A stretch of 64,000 nucleotides of DNA from Sedimentisphaerales bacterium. Its GTDB lineage: Bacteria; Planctomycetota; Phycisphaerae; Sedimentisphaerales; Anaerobacaceae. Location of the stretch: assembly GCA_016931715.1 (NCBI GenBank), contig JAFGEF010000040.1, forward strand, positions 1-64,000, written 5' to 3'. The notes under the pieces were generated by a model. That model did not search any database. It saw nothing but the letters and a program-made list of their open reading frames with translations, and was not told where the DNA came from. The position numbers were made by a program, and so were the translations under genes. Positions 6,555 through 43,030 of the stretch are shown piece after piece (the first letter of the stretch is position 1; each line of letters begins with the position of its first letter).

Positions 6555-6957
6555 ATATATCTTTGATAAAGATATCATGAACGTCTCTGATCTTTTCCAG
6601 CAACGGAGCAATTCTTTCTTCGTCGACATCAAATGAATACGCATGGCTGAAAAAATGCCTAAAACTTAAATATTCCTTAAGCATATCAGATGTTTTGCGG
6701 GAAATAATTTTATTAGCAACACAAATTTCAACCAAGTCTATATGCCATGACGGCCCCTGTGGAATTTTCAACGATCTGGAGATAATTAATTGTTTGAAAA
6801 CATTCTCAATACCATTGTAGAAATTATGAAGAAGTGCGGCTACTTCCGCCAGTTCCAGTGCAGACAAGTCTTTTTAGCGATCCAGTTGAGGCAAATCTCC
6901 AAGAACACGCTCAATGTTTTCAAGCTCTGCTTCGATTTTTTCTCTCGTGTTAGCCAT
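6532..6957 (-). pseudogene. HEPN-domain (HepT-like) RNase gene with an in-frame stop codon
   Basis: Reading leftwards from the ATG at 6957, 27 codons (M-A-N-T-R-E-K-I-E-A-E-L...) are followed by TAA at 6876-6874. The same frame then continues with L-S-A-L-E-L-A-E-V-A-A-L-L-H-N-F-Y-N-G-I for a further 111 residues. The HEPN RNase motif Rx4H is present as R-H-F-F-S-H, so the toxin core is intact. A TTG at 6867-6865, two codons after the stop, could reinitiate translation, so the gene may be attenuated rather than dead. The ATG overlaps the end of the upstream MNT gene by eight bases, the usual MNT-HEPN arrangement. Confidence 0.75.
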
Positions 6958-7216
6958 AGATTGGAACACCGTCCCTTTTGACTATCGCATTAAATCTTGT
7001 ATCCTTTGAAAGGTCGATAAGATCAACTGGTTTTGACAAGCGAAACATCAGATCTCCATAGAACTCGAAGAATCGCCTTGGTTCTATACCAATTACACCC
7101 AAATCGATATCTCTTGATTCCTGAGATTCGGTGCTCGAACCAAATAAAAGAATCTTATGCACGCCATAGCTGCGAGCAAGCGAAGATATAATTTCTTTGT
7201 CTTTTTCTGTAATCAT
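6950..7216 (-). CDS. MNT-type nucleotidyltransferase, partner of the interrupted HEPN gene
   Basis: 88 residues, starting at the ATG at 7216 with AAGGA a few bases upstream. The catalytic signature F-G-S-S-T-E-S followed by S-R-D-I-D-L-G-V is intact. A later strand gives P-V-D-L-I-D-L, and the end R-D-G-V-P-I-Y is typical of MntA-like antitoxins. It is the first gene of a two-gene unit with the HEPN gene and is transcribed divergently from mutL. It is quite different in sequence from the + strand MNT at 6160, so the two modules are independent acquisitions rather than a duplication. Confidence 0.85.
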   Translation of the reverse strand: MITEKDKEIISSLARSYGVHKILLFGSSTESQESRDIDLGVIGIEPRRFFEFYGDLMFRLSKPVDLIDLSKDTRFNAIVKRDGVPIYG

Positions 7217-7235
7217 AAAATTATCCTTATTTTCG

Positions 7236-7263
7236 ATTTTAACCAAACTGAATACTTTTGCAA
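7236..7263 (-). promoter_or_regulatory. Promoter for the minus-strand MNT/HEPN pair
   Basis: On the minus strand TTGCAA (7263-7258), a 16-base spacer and TAAAAT (7241-7236) stand about 20 bases before the MNT start codon. It lies within the leader region of the divergent mutL. Confidence 0.4.
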
Positions 7264-7301
7264 TAGAAATTTGGCCATTAACCTTGTACAATGAAAGGCC
7301 T

Positions 7302-9095
7302 ATGGGACAGATAGAGTTACTTGACCAGAATATGATAAACATGATAGCCGCAGGCGAAGTCATTGAGCGACCCGCCAGTGTGGTCAAGGAACTTATGGAA
7401 AACAGCATCGACGCCGGAGCGACTAAAATAATTGTAACAATCGAAGATGGCGGTCGAAAACTAATATCCATCACTGATAACGGCTGCGGCATGGACGCCG
7501 ACGACCTCGCCAAAGCGTTCGAGCCGCACGCTACCAGTAAAATCAAAACCAGCAAGGACCTGCTGGCAATATCAACCCTGGGTTTTCGCGGTGAAGCACT
7601 GGCAAGTATTGCTTCGATAGCACAGGTTAAAGCGGCAAGCAGGTTAAAAGGTTCGAACTCAGCCAACGTTATCGAAATCGATTGCGGAAGCAAAACTACC
7701 GTAAGCCCATGCAGCGCAGATTACGGAACCACGATTCAGGTAAGAGATATTTTTTACAAACTGCCCGCCCGCAGAAAATTTCTGCGAACAGCCAATACCG
7801 AAATGGGACATATAACCGAGCAGTTCATCCGAATCGCTCTTGCTAATGGAAACCTGGATCTGACCTTAATACATAATAACAGGGAAATCTATCGCCTGCT
7901 TGAAACGGACAGTCTCCGCCAGCGAATCGCGACTCTTTTTCCATCACCTTCGGGAAGTATCTCCGATGAATTGATAGAAGCCCAAAGCAGCGAAAAAGCT
8001 TTGCAGATTTACGCTCTTATGGGCAGACCTGAGATTTCCAGGACGAGCAATAAGTTTCAATATATATTTCTTAACGGCCGCTTCATTCACGATAAATTCA
8101 TTTCGCACGCAATTAAAGAAGCATATCGCGGCCTGTTGGAGCCGAACAGGTTCCCGGTTGTTTTTTTATTTATTAAGATGCCTCACGAAGACTATGATGT
8201 CAATGTGCATCCTACGAAAAATGAAGTGCGCTTTTACAACGCCAACCTTGTACATTCGCAAATACTCGGGGCATTGAGAGAGAAACTTTTGGGAACGAAT
8301 CTGCATACTCCCGCTCAATTGCCTTCTGCCGGTGAGCATAACACTTTTTCCCGCGCAAGGCCAGTACGGGATCAGAAAATAGCTGATGCTATGGCGGAGT
8401 TTTTTAAGAAGCATCGCCCAGCCCAAAGCCAGCCTCAGTTTAAATTCAAACATAGTCCTGCTGTTTCCGGCCATAACAGGCCTTCGGCGGAATTTGAAGT
8501 ACACGTCCCCCCTGCCGCACAATCAGACAGGAAGTTCATACAGATACACGACAGTTTCATCGTAGCACAAACTGACGATGGTTTTGTCCTTATCGACCAG
8601 CACGCATTGCACGAGCGGATTATGTATGAAGCATTATGCAAGCGCGTGCGCGAGAGCAGGCTGCAATCGCAAAAACTTTTAATGCCTGAAAGCTTCGAAG
8701 TCACTGAGGCACAGGCAGAGATGCTTGAAAACAATTCGGAACTTATAGAAAAGCTTGGAATCGAGCTTGTTCCATTTGCGCCGAGGACAATGGCAATACA
8801 GGCATTTCCGACCCTGCTTGCAAAAGCCGAGCCGCTCGATTTTATCCAGGACCTCATAGAGATACTGGAAAACAAGCAGGCGGATATTGATTCCGACAGG
8901 CTTCTCGAAGAAATTCTGGACATGGCGGCGTGCAAAGCAGCTATTAAAGCGGGACAGAAATTAACACCGAGCGAGATAGAACAATTGCTCGCTGATAAAG
9001 AAAGCGTGGATTGTTCGAGCCGCTGCCCGCACGGAAGACCGACTACAATTGAATTTTCGATAAGTGAACTGGAAAAGCAGTTCAAGAGAACATGA
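7302..9095 (+). CDS. mutL: DNA mismatch repair protein MutL
   Basis: GHKL ATPase that couples MutS mismatch recognition to strand incision. 597 residues. N-terminal motifs are A-A-G-E-V-I-E-R-P-A-S-V-V-K-E-L near residues 16-31, D-N-G-C-G-M, P-H-A-T-S-K-I and L-G-F-R-G-E-A-L. The C-terminal dimerisation domain carries D-Q-H-A-L-H-E-R-I-M-Y-E near residue 433, A-C-K-A-A-I-K-A-G-Q and C-P-H-G-R-P near 573. These are the metal-binding endonuclease motifs, so this is a nicking MutL of the non-MutH type. The ATG at 7302 is chosen because GAAAGG precedes it and the family begins M-x-x-I-x-x-L; the frame is open further upstream. It overlaps the next gene by four bases (ATGA). Confidence 0.97.
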   Translation: MGQIELLDQNMINMIAAGEVIERPASVVKELMENSIDAGATKIIVTIEDGGRKLISITDNGCGMDADDLAKAFEPHATSKIKTSKDLLAISTLGFRGEALASIASIAQVKAASRLKGSNSANVIEIDCGSKTTVSPCSADYGTTIQVRDIFYKLPARRKFLRTANTEMGHITEQFIRIALANGNLDLTLIHNNREIYRLLETDSLRQRIATLFPSPSGSISDELIEAQSSEKALQIYALMGRPEISRTSNKFQYIFLNGRFIHDKFISHAIKEAYRGLLEPNRFPVVFLFIKMPHEDYDVNVHPTKNEVRFYNANLVHSQILGALREKLLGTNLHTPAQLPSAGEHNTFSRARPVRDQKIADAMAEFFKKHRPAQSQPQFKFKHSPAVSGHNRPSAEFEVHVPPAAQSDRKFIQIHDSFIVAQTDDGFVLIDQHALHERIMYEALCKRVRESRLQSQKLLMPESFEVTEAQAEMLENNSELIEKLGIELVPFAPRTMAIQAFPTLLAKAEPLDFIQDLIEILENKQADIDSDRLLEEILDMAACKAAIKAGQKLTPSEIEQLLADKESVDCSSRCPHGRPTTIEFSISELEKQFKRT

Positions 9096-32860: not shown

Positions 32861-33220
32861 TTATCCGGAAATAGCTTTCCAGCTTTGATTCAGTTCTTCC
32901 ATTAAGCCTATGACATCACGAATCATTTGAGGGTCACGTTTTATATTAGCCTCATTCAAACGTAGATTCATAAAAGAATACAGCTTATGAAGATTGGATG
33001 CAATTTCGCCGCCAGCTTCCATATCAAGAACGGCATTAAGCTCATTAATTATATCCTGTGCTTTAATAATATATTGCCCCTTTGCCTGATAATTTCCCGC
33101 CTGCAGTTCATTGATTGCCAGCTTGAGGAACTTAATCGCACCTTCATAAAGCAGAACAATAATTCTTCCTCTGCTTTGTGTAGTAACTGCATTTTCCTGA
33201 TATGCCCCGATTCCCTTCAT
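32861..33220 (-). CDS. fliS: Flagellar secretion chaperone FliS
   Basis: 119 residues, a four-helix bundle with the FliS opening A-Y-Q-E-N-A-V-T-T-Q-S-R-G and L-L-Y-E-G-A-I-K-F-L. It holds flagellin unfolded in the cytoplasm until export by the flagellar type III apparatus. It lies 120 bases downstream of the flagellin gene on the same strand; no fliD is adjacent. A long imperfect hairpin occupies the gap to fliC. Confidence 0.92.
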   Translation of the reverse strand: MKGIGAYQENAVTTQSRGRIIVLLYEGAIKFLKLAINELQAGNYQAKGQYIIKAQDIINELNAVLDMEAGGEIASNLHKLYSFMNLRLNEANIKRDPQMIRDVIGLMEELNQSWKAISG

Positions 33221-33273
33221 GGTTTCTTTCCGATATTAATGTTTATGATAGACTTTGTGTTTATGACTTTGCA

Positions 33274-33309
33274 GGGAGACATCTGAATTTTCCGATTCAG
33301 ACATCTCCC
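33274..33309 (-). terminator. Long imperfect hairpin between fliC and fliS
   Basis: GGGAGACATCTGAAT (33274-33288) faces ATTCAGACATCTCCC (33295-33309), a stem of about 15 pairs with two mismatches and a 6-base loop. No T-tract follows on the minus strand, so it may be an mRNA-stabilising 3' structure for fliC or a partial terminator that lowers fliS expression. Confidence 0.45.
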
Positions 33310-33342
33310 CTTCAAGCCATTATATATTGAAAGCTTCTGCTA

Positions 33343-34158
33343 TTAACCCAGAAGGCTTAGCGCCATTTGAGGTACAGAATTAGCTTGTGCCAACATAGAA
33401 ACACCGGCCTGTGCCAACACCTGTGTCCTGGTCATTGCTGCCATTTCCGTAGCAACATCAACATCGGAAATACGTGATTCAGCAGCCTGCAGATTCTCTG
33501 TCTGGTTATTGATAACCGATATTGTGCTTTCGAGACGGTTCATCTTGTATCCGAACCTTGCACGAGCGGTATCCTTTGCAGTAATTGCTGCAGCAACTGT
33601 TGCAAGGGCAGACTGAGCAGCTTGCACAGAACTAATACCAGCAGTGTCAAGACTAAGAGCACTGCTTGTTACATTACAGCCTGATATTTCAACCACATCT
33701 GTAGTTGCGGCGCCAAACTGAATCGCTATGGAAGCTGAAGCGCTATTGAGCAGTTCGTTGCCGTTGAACGAAGTAGCATTGGCGATACGATTGATTTCAG
33801 CAGCCATTTCAGTAAATTCATTATCCATAATTAAACGCTGCTCATTAGAATATGAACCAGTTGCGGCTTGCTCTGCTAACTGTTTCATACGAATCAGAGC
33901 TTCATCTATTGTACCCATTGCTCCTTCGAAGGTCTGCAACATACTAATGCCATCCATAGCGTTGCGTGCACCCTGCTGCAACACAGCAATATCTGCACGC
34001 ATCAACTCACGAACAGCCAGACCTGCCGCATCGTCTTTTGCACTATTAATGCGCAAACCGGATGACAGCCTTTCGACAGACTGGGATAATTTATCATAGC
34101 TGCTTCCCAGGTGTCGTGCAGCATTTGCTGCCATAATGTTGTTCTTAATTGCTAACAT
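33343..34158 (-). CDS. fliC: Flagellin
   Basis: 271 residues, a minimal flagellin with D0 and D1 helices and almost no D2/D3 region. The N-terminal part has S-V-E-R-L-S-S-G-L-R-I-N-S-A-K-D-D-A-A-G-L, and the C-terminal part has R-I-S-D-V-D-V-A-T-E-M-A and Q-V-L-A-Q-A-G-V-S-M-L-A-Q-A-N. Subunits are exported and polymerise into the filament. AAGGAG stands before the ATG and a sigma-28-type promoter about 115 bases upstream. FliS, its chaperone, is encoded next. Confidence 0.96.
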   Translation of the reverse strand: MLAIKNNIMAANAARHLGSSYDKLSQSVERLSSGLRINSAKDDAAGLAVRELMRADIAVLQQGARNAMDGISMLQTFEGAMGTIDEALIRMKQLAEQAATGSYSNEQRLIMDNEFTEMAAEINRIANATSFNGNELLNSASASIAIQFGAATTDVVEISGCNVTSSALSLDTAGISSVQAAQSALATVAAAITAKDTARARFGYKMNRLESTISVINNQTENLQAAESRISDVDVATEMAAMTRTQVLAQAGVSMLAQANSVPQMALSLLG

Positions 34159-34494: not shown

Positions 34495-34839
34495 ATGGAA
34501 CAATTATTTTACAGGCTGGCCAAATCAAAGTTCCGAAGCAGATTCAGGCTTAATAAAAAAGAGTTACAGTATCTGCATGATAAAGGATTATCCGTTATAG
34601 AGCAGCATGCACGTGACTTTATAAAGGAACGCCTTGCTCCTGCATTACCAAAAAATGATGGAAAGCAGACACCAATGAGGAACCATCCTGTTTTCGTAGC
34701 TCAACATGCAACTGCTACGTGCTGCAGAAAGTGTCTTGCAAAATGGCACGGAATCAAGATAGGGCTGTCGCTTACTCAACAACAGTCAGATTATATTGTT
34801 TCAGTGATAATGTACTGGCTGAAGGAATACAATGAATGA
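34495..34839 (+). CDS. DUF4186 family protein
   Basis: 114 residues. Diagnostic segments are S-K-F-R-S-R-F-R-L near residue 12, N-D-G-K-Q-T-P-M-R-N-H-P-V-F-V-A-Q-H-A-T-A-T-C and C-L-A-K-W-H-G-I. Conserved His and two Cys pairs suggest a metal-binding site. The family is short, widespread and uncharacterised. It stands alone on the + strand, converging on the cyclotransferase-fusion gene 64 bases away. Confidence 0.88.
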   Translation: MEQLFYRLAKSKFRSRFRLNKKELQYLHDKGLSVIEQHARDFIKERLAPALPKNDGKQTPMRNHPVFVAQHATATCCRKCLAKWHGIKIGLSLTQQQSDYIVSVIMYWLKEYNE

Positions 34840-34903: not shown

Positions 34904-36898
34904 TTAAGAACCGGAAGTTTCCTGTATTTTTTCAATCTGCTGATTGAACATTCTAAGCTGCATATCAATGGCAGTAATCGCCCATTCAATATAATGCATT
35001 TCGTGAGCCGGTTTGTGATGCCCCTCGTTGAGAAGTCCGTCATGTACGGCCTTGAGAAACGTATTTATCGTATGCGTACTGATTTTATCGGGCTTTAGAG
35101 ACCATTTCTTCAGAAGATCGAAATCTTCGCGCAGCTTCTTCGACGAATTTAACTGCTCGGCTGTCAAATAATCACCCGGATTGATAGACAACTGAAGCCC
35201 TTTAAGGCACATAATCAGAGGCTCATAGTTAGCTCTTTCATCCAGCCTTATAAATTTATACTGCTGAACATACGTTGTCACCTGGGCGGGAATCCTTTCG
35301 CCAATATCATCTGAAGGCATATACCACTTTCGTTTATTGGTCCTGGCAAAAACAAGCTCCTCTTTTACCCTTTCATCCCCCTGGAGAGTTCCGCGTACTT
35401 TTTGTATTGCCTTGCTATCCGGCGGTTTTGTTATTTCATCGTAAACCATCCTTGTCACCCAGAGTCTCCCGGCACCTTTTAATTCAGGTCCGCCGCCAAG
35501 AGCCAGCAGGCATTTTGCAAAACCCAGAGGCAAAACTTTTTGTTTTCCCACCTGCCTTTTACGCATTTGAAATGAAAGATGCAAACTGTGTGTAGGGACA
35601 TTATAAAAACTGATGATTTCGTGTATTAATTGATTAAGAAGCCATGGAGCCGAAGTCGCAGGACGGGATAATTCTCCTGCTAAATTTAGCCTTCCGGGCG
35701 CAAGCTCCAAAAAGCCGCTGCGGCGCTCCCTGCCGGCTGAGCCGGAATGATCATCAATATATCCGCCGAGCTTCCATGATAATACATCCAATCCGAAATC
35801 ACAGAAGTATTTAAAGCCGTCATATATCGGGTCATGGGCTTTTGAAATGCTTCTTTTTGGCTCCACGGCCGCTGGTCCGAGATTGCTAAGCTCGATTTCC
35901 AGACCCAGAGGGATAAGACCAAACTTAAGATTCGAGCGAATCAGATTCAGCCTGGTGCTGACAACACGGCGATCAAACAAATCTCTTGCTGCGCGCACTC
36001 CGTATTTTACATAATCTATCAAATCGTTTTTCGTGTACGGCAGCTTCCGAAGACAATCATTAAGAATCATATCAACCGCGGTGCTGTTGAAATTAATAAT
36101 TTGCATTGCCGCAAGCAAACTGACCGACCGGCTGAAATATCTTTTAGAGTTCCGCATATTTTCCAGCTCAAAACGATACTGAGTTTGAATATGTTCGTCA
36201 AGCTGATTGAGCAGAACCTGCTTAACAACAAGAGCAAGGTAATTTTTAATAAAAGGCACTGCCTGCGGGTCATCATATAAATGCTTTATTGACGGGCGAG
36301 GCCTGTCAAGCTCGCGTTCGAGATAATAGTCACTGACTGCATCCGAGCGATAATGACTTATCACAAGGTCACGCTCGGTAGTAGCAAGAAGCTCCCTGTC
36401 GGCACGGCGCTCAGCTTCGGCATCAGCAGATCTCTCGCCCGGGCGGGTGCGCTTTTTAATGAAGCTTTCAATGCGTTTTCGCAGCCACAGCTCATGAATC
36501 AGGTTGACATGGAACCTGTCGCCAAAACGTTTTTTCATCGAATCATGAGAAACCAGGAAAGCCTGTGCTTTCACCGGCCCGTCTGCCGTATTGATGCGTA
36601 CGCTCTCTCTTTGGTATCGCTGACCTTCATACTTGTCTATCACCGCCATAGCATCGGAAGGTACATCGTAAATCACAAGTCCCTCTATTCTTGATGATTC
36701 AGAAGCTACCGCATAAAAATAAACATTGTCAGGACTCACTCTCCTGTAACCCTGTAAAAATGCAGGCTCCGCCAAAAGAACATCACCGCTGTCAATCTTA
36801 GCCGCTTTCCTTGAAAAATCCAGTCCGCAGACAGACTGAAATATTTTGTGATCACGCAAAGACCCATAAACAAACAGGTTCACTTTTTTTTTACTCAT
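34904..36898 (-). CDS. Gamma-glutamylcyclotransferase (AIG2-like) fused to a putative GS-fold amidoligase
   Basis: 664 residues. Residues 1-135 are an AIG2/GGCT-like domain: F-V-Y-G-S-L-R at 9-15 and the catalytic-type glutamate in D-K-Y-E-G (E91). A charged linker (140-180, rich in Arg/Glu) leads to a large C-terminal region that I read as an amidoligase of the glutamine-synthetase/GCS-like fold. It has G-L-E-I-E-L (332-337, the metal-binding GxExE pattern), F-L-E-L-A-P-G (397-402) and H-S-L-H-L-S-F (437-443). Amidoligases and AIG2-type cyclotransferases are known to co-occur in gene neighbourhoods that make or edit gamma-glutamyl peptides. The second assignment rests on motifs only and could be wrong. 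Last gene of a minus-strand run after GT2 and GT-C genes. Confidence 0.7.
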   Translation of the reverse strand: MSKKKVNLFVYGSLRDHKIFQSVCGLDFSRKAAKIDSGDVLLAEPAFLQGYRRVSPDNVYFYAVASESSRIEGLVIYDVPSDAMAVIDKYEGQRYQRESVRINTADGPVKAQAFLVSHDSMKKRFGDRFHVNLIHELWLRKRIESFIKKRTRPGERSADAEAERRADRELLATTERDLVISHYRSDAVSDYYLERELDRPRPSIKHLYDDPQAVPFIKNYLALVVKQVLLNQLDEHIQTQYRFELENMRNSKRYFSRSVSLLAAMQIINFNSTAVDMILNDCLRKLPYTKNDLIDYVKYGVRAARDLFDRRVVSTRLNLIRSNLKFGLIPLGLEIELSNLGPAAVEPKRSISKAHDPIYDGFKYFCDFGLDVLSWKLGGYIDDHSGSAGRERRSGFLELAPGRLNLAGELSRPATSAPWLLNQLIHEIISFYNVPTHSLHLSFQMRKRQVGKQKVLPLGFAKCLLALGGGPELKGAGRLWVTRMVYDEITKPPDSKAIQKVRGTLQGDERVKEELVFARTNKRKWYMPSDDIGERIPAQVTTYVQQYKFIRLDERANYEPLIMCLKGLQLSINPGDYLTAEQLNSSKKLREDFDLLKKWSLKPDKISTHTINTFLKAVHDGLLNEGHHKPAHEMHYIEWAITAIDMQLRMFNQQIEKIQETSGS

Positions 36899-36987: not shown

Positions 36988-37743
36988 TCAGTTTCCGCCG
37001 CGGATTTTTTTGTGTAACTTAAATAACTCCTTAAACGCACGAAGAATTACCCATGGATTAGCGCCGGTCTGCACTCCGGCTGCACGCGGGTAATGATTCA
37101 CACCTTTTTGAGTAATTTTATACCCTTTTCCGGACGCCCTCGCCAGAATCTCCGTATCGATAAGAGCGCCGGTGCTTGAAAGTTTAATATTATCGAATAT
37201 TTCTCTTTTGTATAACTTGAAGGCACAATCGATATCACGAATTCTCAGGCCAAAGAGCGTGCATACGAGCTTTGTCCAGCACCATGCGTTAATTTTTCGA
37301 ATCAGGCTGTCCCGGCGTTTTATGCGATAACAGCTTACAATATCATAATGTTCCATCAGAGGCAGCAGCGGGGGCAGTTCTTTTAAATCGAATTGACCGT
37401 CACCGTCTGTATAAAAAACATATTCTTTGGATGCAGCCTTAAAACCGGACTGCAGCGCTGCTCCATACCCGAGATTCCTGGGATGGTGAATCGCTTTTAC
37501 TCTTTTGTCCTTTCGGGACAGCTCATCAGCTATTTGACCTGTTTTATCTGCGCTGCCGTCATTGACTATAATAATTTCAAAATCCAAATCGAGCTTATTT
37601 AATACTTCAAACGCCTGTTCAGCAGTGCGAGCAACATTCCCCTCCTCATTATAACATGGGAAAAAAACGCTTAGAGATTTTACAGCCTGCTGGTTACAAG
37701 AGGAGTCACCTGTCCGGGATTTATGGCCATAATCTTCGACCAT
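36988..37743 (-). CDS. Family 2 glycosyltransferase (polyprenyl-phosphate mannose/glucose synthase type)
   Basis: 251 residues. GT-A fold with F-F-P-C-Y-N-E-E-G, V-N-D-G-S-A-D-K-T and the metal-binding D-G-D-G-Q-F-D in place of DxD. No C-terminal membrane anchor is seen, as in Dpm1-like enzymes that transfer mannose or glucose to a polyprenyl phosphate. It lies six bases after a GT-C-like membrane protein that could use such a lipid-linked sugar, so the two plausibly act in sequence at the inner membrane. GGTGG precedes the start codon. Confidence 0.92.
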   Translation of the reverse strand: MVEDYGHKSRTGDSSCNQQAVKSLSVFFPCYNEEGNVARTAEQAFEVLNKLDLDFEIIIVNDGSADKTGQIADELSRKDKRVKAIHHPRNLGYGAALQSGFKAASKEYVFYTDGDGQFDLKELPPLLPLMEHYDIVSCYRIKRRDSLIRKINAWCWTKLVCTLFGLRIRDIDCAFKLYKREIFDNIKLSSTGALIDTEILARASGKGYKITQKGVNHYPRAAGVQTGANPWVILRAFKELFKLHKKIRGGN

Positions 37744-37749
37744 ATAATG

Positions 37750-40425
37750 TCACCACCTTTTTTCCATTCCTATTCTTCTAAGCTCGCTTAAACAAAAATT
37801 ACGCTGAGTATCATAAGTATTTTTTAAATCTTCATTTTTCTGTAAAACTGCTGCCTGTGCCAAGTAATAATTCGCCAATCTCGCTGCTTCTACCTTAAGA
37901 CGATAGCCATCGATTTTTCTCCATTCTTCGTGTTTTTCGTCAAAATTTTTAGCATACTCTTCGCAGAACTCTCTGACATCGCTGCGTAATTCCGCAAACC
38001 TGGCGGCATCAAGAATTAATGCTAAAATCGGAGCAGGAGAAGGATTGGCTTGAAACGCCAGTTTAGCATCCTTCAAACCCTGTTCTTTATCCTTCAACAT
38101 CGGCTCATACACCAGTAATTTATGAGCGCGGTTAAGATTCGCATGATATTCATCAGGATATATAGTCTCGCCTGTAAGAATACCATCGTAAAGTTTCTTG
38201 CCCTGCGGCGTCCTGATATCAACCAGCAGCTTTTGCTTGTCATTAAAGAAAACAAGTCTCCAAAACTCATGAAGCTCAAGCGACTTGAATGTATAGTAAG
38301 AGGAAGATTTTTCAGGATCCGGGTCATTAAAAATACTGGCCGGCATCAGCATCGTCCACACATTGCGTTTTCTAAGCTGCTCATCCATAAACTCGCCGAT
38401 TTCCTTAAAATCGTCTTCTGTAAGTACCAGGTTCCTGATTTTTGCCTCTCTGAGAATTCTCTGTGTTATTTCTCCTCCTGCCAGTATATAAGACCATTCG
38501 TCAAAAGTCACTCGATTATATGCAGCCTGCGCCCTGCCATCCATAAATAACTGAAGAGGCGTGAATCCATTAGAATCCGGCTCCTGTCCCCAGGCAATAA
38601 AACCGCCCTCGGTCCAGTAGTTAAACATTTTCCCCTCCAATTTATTATCTTTTATAAACTTCATAGTATAGAAGGGTTTTGCATCAGAAGCCGTCATCCT
38701 CATAAAAACAGAACTGAATTTCGGATCATTGGGCCACGGGTCAAGATAGACACACTTAAATTTCAAACCCCACCATGTCCCGAAAAATATAACAGCCAAA
38801 GCGCCAGCGGCAATAAATGTATGCTGAAGATTTCGCGGCATCTCAGGAATGACAAATTTTCCGCCCATAACAAAATTATGCCTGGCTGAAACAACATGAA
38901 TCAGTTGAGTCAAAAACATCGCAGCAATCGGGCATCCCGCAACGCCGGCTATCGGTATGAACCTGCGTGACCGAATAGCCATATAAATAGTCAGAGCCGC
39001 TATAATTATCATAACAATATCAATATGGGGCCACTGAAAACTGCCGGAATCGTTCTTTTTCCGACGAGGATACCGGCTGTCAGAACCGGGAACAAATATC
39101 ATGGCTAAAAACCAGCCGATAAATACAACACTTATAATGATAAACATTAATAAAAACGGTACTGCAGTACCGACAGGATTAGTCCAGTCAAACGCCGGAT
39201 GCCATTCATGAATGTCACGCCATCTCTCGGCATTTTTGCTTACACTGATAACAAAGGTATGAGTCAGGTTTGTCAGGTGGAAAGGATTTAATAAAATAGA
39301 AGCCAAAAAAGCAGCGATAAATGCCCCGATTGAATGATACACACCTTTCCAGCCCACAGAGACCAGCCTGTTCTTGAAAAAAATAAGGGTAATATCTAAT
39401 ACGACCAGCAAAATGGTAAACAGGAATAACGCTAATACAGTCGAAGTCTTAATTTTCACTTCCGGATCGTCTGGCACTGCTTTGGCGATTACAAAAAATA
39501 AAAAAGGCCATGCGGCAATATTGTATAAAATCGCTGTCCATTTTCGATTGAGACAGGTAAGCAAGTGCAGCCCGATAAACGGAATCATCATAATAAATAC
39601 ATATATATAACCGCCATGAACATTGCACCAGAAAACAACCAATGGAACGATAAGCCATATATACAATTTATTTCGATATAACGTCAGTGCGAGAATGAGC
39701 AGAAAAACCGCAACAAGCATATTTGAGAAACCAGCCGGACGAATATCGAGAAAAGACCTGCCGATAAACAGTGCAAAACATGAAAAAACAACCGCCAAAA
39801 ACCGATTTGCTCCAATTATCCGGGAGACGTAATAAACACAAATCACCGTAATAATATAAATTACGAATTTCCAATAAACCAAAGCATTGGACGTAAAGCT
39901 AACACCGTCTGCATATGAAGATTGAGGGACCAGCTTATAAAAAATAACATGCGTAAGCCAGTTCTGATTGATCCAGCCTGTCGAGTGAATCCACTTTACA
40001 AAAGATTTTTCCCACTGGGGCCAGTTTTCGAAATTTGCGCATTTATCAGCCCACCATCTCATTAGCGAATATTTCATTCCGCTTTCATATCCCGCATCTC
40101 TTCTAAGAGCATTGGCGTATTCAGTCATTGTTTCTACTGTCGGTCCTGCTTTATGTGAATTTGCACTGAAAGGCTCGACTGTATTCACGCCGTGATTTGC
40201 GAAATGACGCCCGCATGCCATTGCCACCCATGTATCACCGGCGGCAACCATATGCGTACAGGCATGAAATGTAAAAATAAGCATAGCTATCCAGCCCAAA
40301 ATCATAGGCCAGCCGGCAAATGCTTCACGTATCGCAGGTTTTACAGGTTCTTCTGCGTTCACGGGATTATTTGCTTCCTGTGCTCCCTGTGGATTATTTT
40401 GTTTTCTCTTTGCAGATTTATTCAT
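37750..40425 (-). CDS. Large GT-C-like membrane protein, possible lipid-linked-sugar glycosyltransferase
   Basis: 891 residues. A polar N-terminal 35 residues is followed by about a dozen membrane helices (to residue 560) and a soluble C-terminal domain of about 330 residues with helical-repeat character. The first external loop has G-D-T-W-V-A-M-A-C-G-R-H and later N-Q-N-W-L-T-H, the loop pattern seen in GT-C proteins of the PMT/ArnT-like clan found widely in planctomycetes. Catalytic identity is not proven. It directly precedes the GT2 gene (six bases), and the sigma/anti-sigma pair lies 140 bases upstream on the same strand. Confidence 0.75.
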   Translation of the reverse strand: MNKSAKRKQNNPQGAQEANNPVNAEEPVKPAIREAFAGWPMILGWIAMLIFTFHACTHMVAAGDTWVAMACGRHFANHGVNTVEPFSANSHKAGPTVETMTEYANALRRDAGYESGMKYSLMRWWADKCANFENWPQWEKSFVKWIHSTGWINQNWLTHVIFYKLVPQSSYADGVSFTSNALVYWKFVIYIITVICVYYVSRIIGANRFLAVVFSCFALFIGRSFLDIRPAGFSNMLVAVFLLILALTLYRNKLYIWLIVPLVVFWCNVHGGYIYVFIMMIPFIGLHLLTCLNRKWTAILYNIAAWPFLFFVIAKAVPDDPEVKIKTSTVLALFLFTILLVVLDITLIFFKNRLVSVGWKGVYHSIGAFIAAFLASILLNPFHLTNLTHTFVISVSKNAERWRDIHEWHPAFDWTNPVGTAVPFLLMFIIISVVFIGWFLAMIFVPGSDSRYPRRKKNDSGSFQWPHIDIVMIIIAALTIYMAIRSRRFIPIAGVAGCPIAAMFLTQLIHVVSARHNFVMGGKFVIPEMPRNLQHTFIAAGALAVIFFGTWWGLKFKCVYLDPWPNDPKFSSVFMRMTASDAKPFYTMKFIKDNKLEGKMFNYWTEGGFIAWGQEPDSNGFTPLQLFMDGRAQAAYNRVTFDEWSYILAGGEITQRILREAKIRNLVLTEDDFKEIGEFMDEQLRKRNVWTMLMPASIFNDPDPEKSSSYYTFKSLELHEFWRLVFFNDKQKLLVDIRTPQGKKLYDGILTGETIYPDEYHANLNRAHKLLVYEPMLKDKEQGLKDAKLAFQANPSPAPILALILDAARFAELRSDVREFCEEYAKNFDEKHEEWRKIDGYRLKVEAARLANYYLAQAAVLQKNEDLKNTYDTQRNFCLSELRRIGMEKRW

Positions 40426-41842: not shown

Positions 41843-43030
41843 TCAGCTTAGCCATTTTTCGATTCTATCCAAACCTTTGGTAATCTGCTCAAGTGAACAG
41901 GCAAAACTTAAACGCACATTATTGTCACATCCAAACGCATTACCGGGCACTAATGCGACATTTGCCTGCTCCAAAAGCGCTTGTGCGAAATTCATACTGT
42001 CTGTTATTTTTACACCGCCGATTTCACGCCCAAAATGGCCTGAAACATCAGGAAAACAGTAAAATGCCCCGGTCGGTTCCGAGCATTCGAGGCCCTTGAT
42101 TGCATTGAGACGTTCAGCCATATACTTGCCCCGGCGTTCAAATTCCAGTCTCATTTTTTCTATGGTCGGGCCGGCCTGTTCGCCCAGAGCAGCTATCGCC
42201 GCATATTGGGCAAAAGTAACCGGATTGCTGGTCATGTGATCCTGCAGACGACTCATCGCCTTAATTACATCGAGCGGTCCGGCGGTATAACCAAGGCGCC
42301 AGCCAGTCATGGAAAATGCCTTGCTGAAGCCGTTCATTGTCAGTGTTCTTTCAAATGCATCCTTGCTCACTGACGCAAAACTCACAAATTTCGTATCGCC
42401 ATAAACAAGCTTTTCGTACATTTCATCCGAAATAACGCTCACATTCGTTCCTTCAAGAACCTGTGCAAGCGCCGTTTGCTCATCAGGTGTATAAGTAAAA
42501 CCACCCGGATTATTTGGAGAATTCAGCACAAACATAGCTGTTTTTTTCTTTATTGCCTTTTTCAACTGAGCCGGGGTAATTTTATAACCGGTACTCTTAT
42601 CAGTTTGAATAATCTTTGGAGTTGCACCGGCAAGCTTTATCGCCTCTACGTATGTTACCCAGTACGGCGCCGGCAGAATCACCTCATCACCCGGGTCAAG
42701 AACAGCCTGCATCGCCTCATAAACCGAGTGTTTTCCTCCTATATTGACAACAACCTGATTAGGACTGTAGGCCAGAGCATTATCTTTTTGAAGCTTTTGA
42801 GCAATTGCAGTCCGCAACTCGATGATACCGGCTGCAGGTGTATATTTGGTTTTTCCGGCTTTTAAAGCTGCTATGGCGGCATCTTTGATATAGTCTGGCG
42901 TATCAAAATCGGGTTCTCCTGCGCCAAAACCTACTACATCTACACCTTTGGCTTTCAATTCCTGCGCACGCGCAGTTACCGCTATTGTAGCTGAAGGAGG
43001 CACATTTTGTGCTCTTTTGCTTACTTTCAT
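41843..43030 (-). CDS. Class I aspartate/aromatic aminotransferase (PLP)
   Basis: 395 residues, the subgroup I-beta size. Seen in order are the substrate-loop motif G-A-G-E-P-D-F-D-T-P, the P-Y-W-V-T-Y aromatic stacking segment, N-S-P-N-N-P-G-G, the S-D-E-M-Y-E strand with the pyridine-binding Asp, the Schiff-base lysine in S-G-F-S-K-A-F-S-M-T-G-W-R-L-G-Y, and R-L-S-F-A-C for the alpha-carboxylate Arg. Probably aspartate aminotransferase, though prephenate or other substrates are possible. AAAGGA precedes the ATG. Confidence 0.94.
   Translation of the reverse strand: MKVSKRAQNVPPSATIAVTARAQELKAKGVDVVGFGAGEPDFDTPDYIKDAAIAALKAGKTKYTPAAGIIELRTAIAQKLQKDNALAYSPNQVVVNIGGKHSVYEAMQAVLDPGDEVILPAPYWVTYVEAIKLAGATPKIIQTDKSTGYKITPAQLKKAIKKKTAMFVLNSPNNPGGFTYTPDEQTALAQVLEGTNVSVISDEMYEKLVYGDTKFVSFASVSKDAFERTLTMNGFSKAFSMTGWRLGYTAGPLDVIKAMSRLQDHMTSNPVTFAQYAAIAALGEQAGPTIEKMRLEFERRGKYMAERLNAIKGLECSEPTGAFYCFPDVSGHFGREIGGVKITDSMNFAQALLEQANVALVPGNAFGCDNNVRLSFACSLEQITKGLDRIEKWLS

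Follow-up and report, generated by a model that had tools for sequence, protein, structure and literature searches.

Can one bacterial polypeptide carry both an activity that makes gamma-glutamyl-type amide bonds and one that breaks them? The question is raised by a locus in a Sedimentisphaerales bacterium of the class Phycisphaerae, which we analyzed within a window of 64,000 nucleotides (contig JAFGEF010000040.1, positions 1 to 64,000). A preliminary description had proposed that a 664-residue protein encoded at 34904-36898 fuses a GGCT/AIG2 domain to a putative amidoligase of the glutamine synthetase (GS) fold. An open frame of 664 codons does occupy exactly these positions; it lies on the minus strand, which corrects the earlier account, and a plus-strand reading is ruled out by its many stops. 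The protein consists of a gamma-glutamyl cyclotransferase (GGCT) domain (residues 8-118), a helical stretch (~130-317), a domain that carries the motifs discussed below (~325-580) and a helical tail (587-662). The conserved stretch between the two domains was missing from the preliminary description; it forms helices in a low-confidence AlphaFold model, where its pLDDT reaches about 80. Coordinates of all features are collected in Table 1.

Table 1. Features of the fusion gene and its conserved neighbors, in positions of the window
Feature	Position	Strand	Basis
664-residue fusion protein, whole frame including stop	34904..36898	-	open frame, homologues, dN/dS
GGACT/AIG2 gamma-glutamyl cyclotransferase domain, residues 8-118	36545..36877	-	PF06094; AIG2 structures 2g0q, 2jqv by profile
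YGSL substrate-loop motif, residues 11-14	36857..36868	-	38-member alignment
Glu91, presumed catalytic glutamate (YEG)	36626..36628	-	invariant in 38 members
Conserved linker domain, residues 130-317, predicted helical	35948..36511	-	low-confidence model; conserved in alignment
Putative GS/amidoligase-like domain, residues ~325-580	35159..35926	-	motif order and spacing, low-confidence model; no profile match
G332-x-E334-x-E336 (G332-L-E-I-E336)	35891..35905	-	alignment, ordered pattern, f15 loss
W375 to D382-D383	35750..35776	-	alignment, ordered pattern, f15 loss
E398-L-A-P-G402 (E and G conserved, P not)	35693..35707	-	alignment, ordered pattern, f15 loss
H437-S-L-H440 (H437-x-x-H440)	35579..35590	-	alignment, ordered pattern, f15 loss
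C-terminal helical tail, residues 587-662	34913..35140	-	model helices, pLDDT mostly 47-77
Family 2 glycosyltransferase	36988..37743	-	PF00535, E 3.2e-31
891-residue unclassified protein, many hydrophobic stretches	37750..40425	-	no Pfam match; conserved upstream neighbor
Class I aminotransferase, further upstream in conserved string	41843..43030	-	PF00155, E 1.9e-77

The N-terminal part is a member of the GGACT/AIG2 family, as had been proposed, both by profile and by its conserved catalytic-type residues. PF06094 matches residues 8-118 with an E value of 6.8e-14 (52.9 bits, against a curated cut-off of 22.8) and matches all 38 members of our alignment (threshold E up to 1); a search of the organism's own genome returned a single PF06094 match, that of the fusion, at the same place. 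Tyr11 and Gly12 are invariant in the alignment, position 13 is Ser or Thr, and Glu91 lines up with the Glu-Gly of the Arabidopsis AIG2 structures. PHROGs gave a weak GGCT match and otherwise nothing. Cyclotransferase activity is predicted for this domain. Known members of the family are mostly single-domain proteins. The fusion shares with them the profile match above the cut-off, the YGSL loop and the glutamate of YEG, whereas here the domain makes up only the first fifth of the protein.

We then asked how widely the fusion is distributed. Full-length relatives of the same build are encoded by 41 of 61 related genomes, with the organism's own counted among the 41. A sample of 150 genomes of the class contained 37 with relatives, most of these again full length and of the same build; one (G157) showed a short match to the GGCT part only. 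Outside the order, identity falls to 33-41% over the whole length; named MAGs of Phycisphaerae and Sedimentisphaerales also carry relatives. When the C-terminal part was searched by itself as a profile, it matched 86 of 347 genomes of the class Phycisphaerae. With the exception of two truncated at contig ends, every match to the whole of this profile sits in a frame of at least 642 amino acids, and the C-terminal part was thus never found on its own. In the sampled Phycisphaerae the fusion is single copy and always full length. Among 343 genomes of a phylum sample, the only significant matches were in the organism's own genome and in five others from its order; an additional match (E 0.02) lies at chance level. 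An earlier search of 199 genomes of the phylum gave the same picture, and the fusion was not found in other classes within the Planctomycetota sample. Searches of phages and viral contigs gave no relative of the C-terminal part, and a search of plasmids gave no relative, which speaks against a mobile or phage origin.

These relatives, together with dN/dS values of ~0.06-0.10 in all three parts of the protein, rule out a chance frame, and an assembly artefact is ruled out because dozens of independent genomes carry the fusion in one frame. The dN/dS values (~0.10 for the GGCT domain, 0.06 for the middle and 0.07 for the C-terminal part, against a relative of 85% identity) are rough, coming from a single pair by the Nei-Gojobori method with dS above 1. 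Purifying selection is strong on each of the three parts. Across the 38 members, pairwise distances in the N-terminal part and those in the C-terminal part have a correlation of 0.93, the pattern that a single ancestral fusion would give; shared genome ancestry contributes to this figure.

What, then, is the rest of the protein? Pfam gave nothing significant in the 546 residues outside the GGACT/AIG2 domain, and residues 130-664 had no match in Pfam, NCBIfam, PHROG, PADLOC or PDB; the lack of a PADLOC match speaks against a defence system. Comparison with amidoligase and GCS profiles, which the preliminary description had put forward as a check, went against its proposal: Amidoligase_2 (PF12224) matched no fusion member at E up to 1, and nothing in the 61 related genomes, and GCS2 (PF04107) matched neither the fusion protein nor anything else in its own genome. 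As a side observation, GCS2 occurs in 9 of 61 sampled genomes of the class, none of which has the fusion; phylogeny confounds this pattern and we set it aside as evidence. By hhalign, Amidoligase_2 scored best of 16 families against the C-terminal profile, at a nonsignificant E of 0.016-0.03 (probability under 3%), and the best local alignment differed between runs. The positive control, GCS2 against Amidoligase_2, reached an E of only 0.0038 by hhalign and gave no clear score by HMMER. HMMER comparisons of the C-terminal region, amidoligases and GCS2 in both directions found nothing, the control pair being equally uninformative. Because this control is also weak, the sequence tests cannot exclude membership of the amidoligases.

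The motifs are more informative. All three that had been named, GxExE, E-L-x-P-G and H-x-L-H, are present, and in the 38-member alignment G332, E334, E336, W375, D382, E398, H437 and H440 are invariant or nearly so. Their conservation holds with two qualifications: Pro401 is replaced by Leu in many members, and two members lack most of the set. The order and spacing of GxExE, of W followed by D, of E and of His are those of Amidoligase_2 proteins, 14 of which we gathered from a planctomycete and phages. An ordered pattern, GxExE / W-x(3-9)-D / E / H-x-[HS], written after both alignments had been seen and thus post hoc, is present in 36 of the 38 fusions and in 13 of the 14 amidoligases; it is found in none of 375 neighboring proteins, in none of their 375 reversed copies, and in 266 of 200,000 shuffles of the window's fusion protein sequence. 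A stricter version with E-x-x-P and H-x-H was dropped when the amidoligases themselves failed it; in those proteins E and P are separated by three residues instead of two, and the proline was left out of the final pattern for that reason.

The fusion also departs from Amidoligase_2 in several respects. The first His of the family's H-x-H motif is kept (H440), whereas the second is Ser442; E-x-x-P, with its variable proline, stands in place of E-x-V-S-P; and the fusion is longer. The late G-T-x-E-x-R motif of the amidoligases was not found in register in the fusion alignment. A conserved Y-K-F-x-R-L ... N-Y-E-P-L-I block lies at the place of their late R-Y-x-x-x-N and G-T-x-E-x-R, in an alignment that is not clear. 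Because a profile match and the H-x-H motif were both looked for and not found, we do not file the C-terminal domain under Amidoligase_2.

A lineage in which the motifs have decayed provides a different kind of evidence. In both genomes of family f15 (L062 and L063), 17 of 18 otherwise invariant GGCT positions are unchanged, D382, F396, E398 and H440 are lost, and G332, E334 or E336 is lost in one or the other. The changes at invariant C-terminal positions affect 12 of 15 positions in the motif stretches, which we delimited after inspection, against 6 of 32 elsewhere (Fisher p about 1e-4); with only the three motifs of the preliminary description the figures are 6 of 8 against 12 of 39 (p about 0.03). 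The two genomes are related and perhaps represent one event. Judged from these replacements, the decay suggests a single site to which the motifs belong and with which the protein can dispense. It also bears on the idea that a GS-like C-terminal domain senses or binds a ligand, with no ligase activity of its own, and so regulates the cyclotransferase. That most of the remaining domain and the GGCT site survive in f15 while the motif residues are replaced would suit such a role, but the complete set of motifs persists in 36 of 38 members, seemingly more than ligand binding needs, and we consider it very unlikely.

Structure prediction gave limited further guidance. The mean pLDDT was 43.2 when the whole protein was modelled and 43.8 when only its C-terminal part (318-664) was, a low confidence that reflects the coverage of the AlphaFold runs, which rested on only 11 sequences. 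In the low-confidence model of 318-664, strands at 332-338, 372-381, 395-399 and 439-446 and helices at 361-367 and 418-431 place GxExE, W375-D382, E398 and H440 on or beside separate strands, with helices between. This order of strands and helices is the one expected for a GS-like ligase fold. Fold searches with the model returned no significant match.

How should these observations be weighed? The C-terminal region might be unrelated to amidoligases, a domain specific to the lineage that has a metal site of its own (a hydrolase, transferase or other) and short motifs that have converged on theirs; only the GGCT half would then belong to a known enzyme class. The want of any significant profile or fold match is consistent with this, as are the missing second His of H-x-H and the missing late motif. 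Convergence would nevertheless have to account for four motifs that follow the correct order and spacing, scarcely vary and disappeared together in a single lineage, and the silence of the sequence tests is weak evidence given how they performed on the control pair. We regard an unrelated domain as possible, if on the doubtful side. The proposal of an amidoligase half thus stands in part: motif order and spacing, the correlated loss in f15 and the predicted strand and helix order argue for it, and the unmatched PF12224 and GCS profiles argue against. A C-terminal domain that works like a GS-fold ligase is the most likely reading; counting all readings that include it, we rate it somewhat better than even.

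Comparison with known systems shows how such a ligase might be paired with a cyclotransferase. In butirosin biosynthesis, BtrJ, a ligase of the ATP-grasp type, adds a gamma-glutamate that BtrG, a GGCT-family enzyme, removes as 5-oxoproline. The fusion would share this pairing of a gamma-glutamyl ligase with a GGCT-family enzyme; it differs in being one protein instead of two and in its candidate ligase, which would be GS-like. Phages offer closer parallels. Geobacillus phage GR1 has amidoligase and GGCT genes side by side, and a single region of phage phiEco32 holds GGACT, ATP-grasp, glutamine amidotransferase, Amidoligase_2 and COOH-NH2_lig genes. A phage of a cultured deep-sea planctomycete carries amidoligase, glutathione synthase, GGCT and glutamine amidotransferase genes, a set discussed in terms of nitrogen and amino-acid metabolism (PMC10945688). 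Common to the fusion, the phiEco32-type cassette and the GR1 pair is a GGCT and an amidoligase, or candidate amidoligase, in one genetic unit. The phages, in contrast, use separate genes, whereas here there is one polypeptide, chromosomal and conserved in a lineage, and its locus lacks the adjoining ATP-grasp and amidotransferase partners of the phiEco32-type cassette. As far as we have searched, a scope outside which the 2009 amidoligase survey by Iyer and colleagues falls, the fusion is undescribed.

We also examined the gene neighborhood for hints of a substrate. A family 2 glycosyltransferase lies immediately upstream, 89 bases ahead of the fusion gene, an order kept in most f1 loci and in f3, f6 and f7. 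In these four families the fusion usually follows a string of class I aminotransferase, unclassified hydrophobic protein and glycosyltransferase; the string is absent at the f12 and f16 loci. An alanine racemase gene, the sole one in the tested f7 and f3 genomes, is the immediate upstream neighbor, on the same strand, at almost all f7 loci and at one f3 locus. The neighborhood varies between families, and no substrate or partner gene marks the locus; loosely, the context points to amino-acid and envelope metabolism and names no substrate.

Several other features of these loci were noted. Ala_racemase_C (PF00842) was unmatched in four f1 genomes (G000, G003, G013 and G019, the window's own among them), possibly through MAG incompleteness; D-Ala-D-Ala ligase-type domains are present in f1 genomes with no PF00842 match. 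In f16, a radical SAM gene often adjoins the fusion (L048, at 6667-7701, and L050, L055, L057, L059 and L065), with a weak Pfam score of 20.0 against a cut-off of 29.5. In the window, a DUF4186 gene (PF13811, E 1.3e-51; 34495-34839, plus strand) converges with the fusion gene, and FliS and flagellin genes (32861-34158, minus strand) adjoin the conserved gene string.

A further possibility is that the C-terminal domain is a GS-like ligase whose product is not the substrate of the GGCT domain, each activity having a bond of its own to act on, as in the modification of peptidoglycan or some other polymer of the envelope. The conserved string and the racemase would fit such an arrangement, as would the interpretation of phiEco32-type phage cassettes, which contain the same parts, as a means of peptidoglycan modification (PMC5498523). 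Against this, the string is absent in f12 and f16, and a neighborhood alone does not reveal a substrate. We think two separate bonds distinctly unlikely.

Our best reading, to which we give slightly less than an even chance, is that the protein is bifunctional, a gamma-glutamyl-type amide synthetase/cyclotransferase that corresponds in fused form to the separate-gene pairs of phages. The domain at ~325-580 would be a divergent glutamine-synthetase-like amidoligase in which the residues of GxExE, the Asp pair, E398 and H440 hold ATP and metal ions. It would activate a carboxylate as an acyl phosphate and then join an amine to it. The GGCT/AIG2 domain would open gamma-glutamyl amides by cyclizing the glutamyl part to 5-oxoproline, with Glu91 as the base, and the helical stretch 130-317 may position the two sites. 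Both sites, we infer, would act on the same bond, one half putting on and the other taking off a gamma-glutamyl-type group for amine protection, editing or recycling, most likely in cell-envelope or amino-acid metabolism. A bolder version, which we consider rather unlikely, is that the protein is the founding member of a new GS-like amidoligase family, found only fused to an opposing cyclotransferase and serving Phycisphaerae as a self-contained enzyme for adding and removing gamma-glutamyl groups.

Overall, this protein, which is conserved, under selection and present as a single copy in an environmental bacterial class, contains some 530 residues that have so far had no classification. Should its C-terminal half be a ligase, a single chain would unite enzymes that form and cleave the same type of bond, a rare arrangement. 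Family f15, with its decayed ligase site, would then be a natural control for the role of each half, and a gene pair known from phages would be tied to a chromosomal function.
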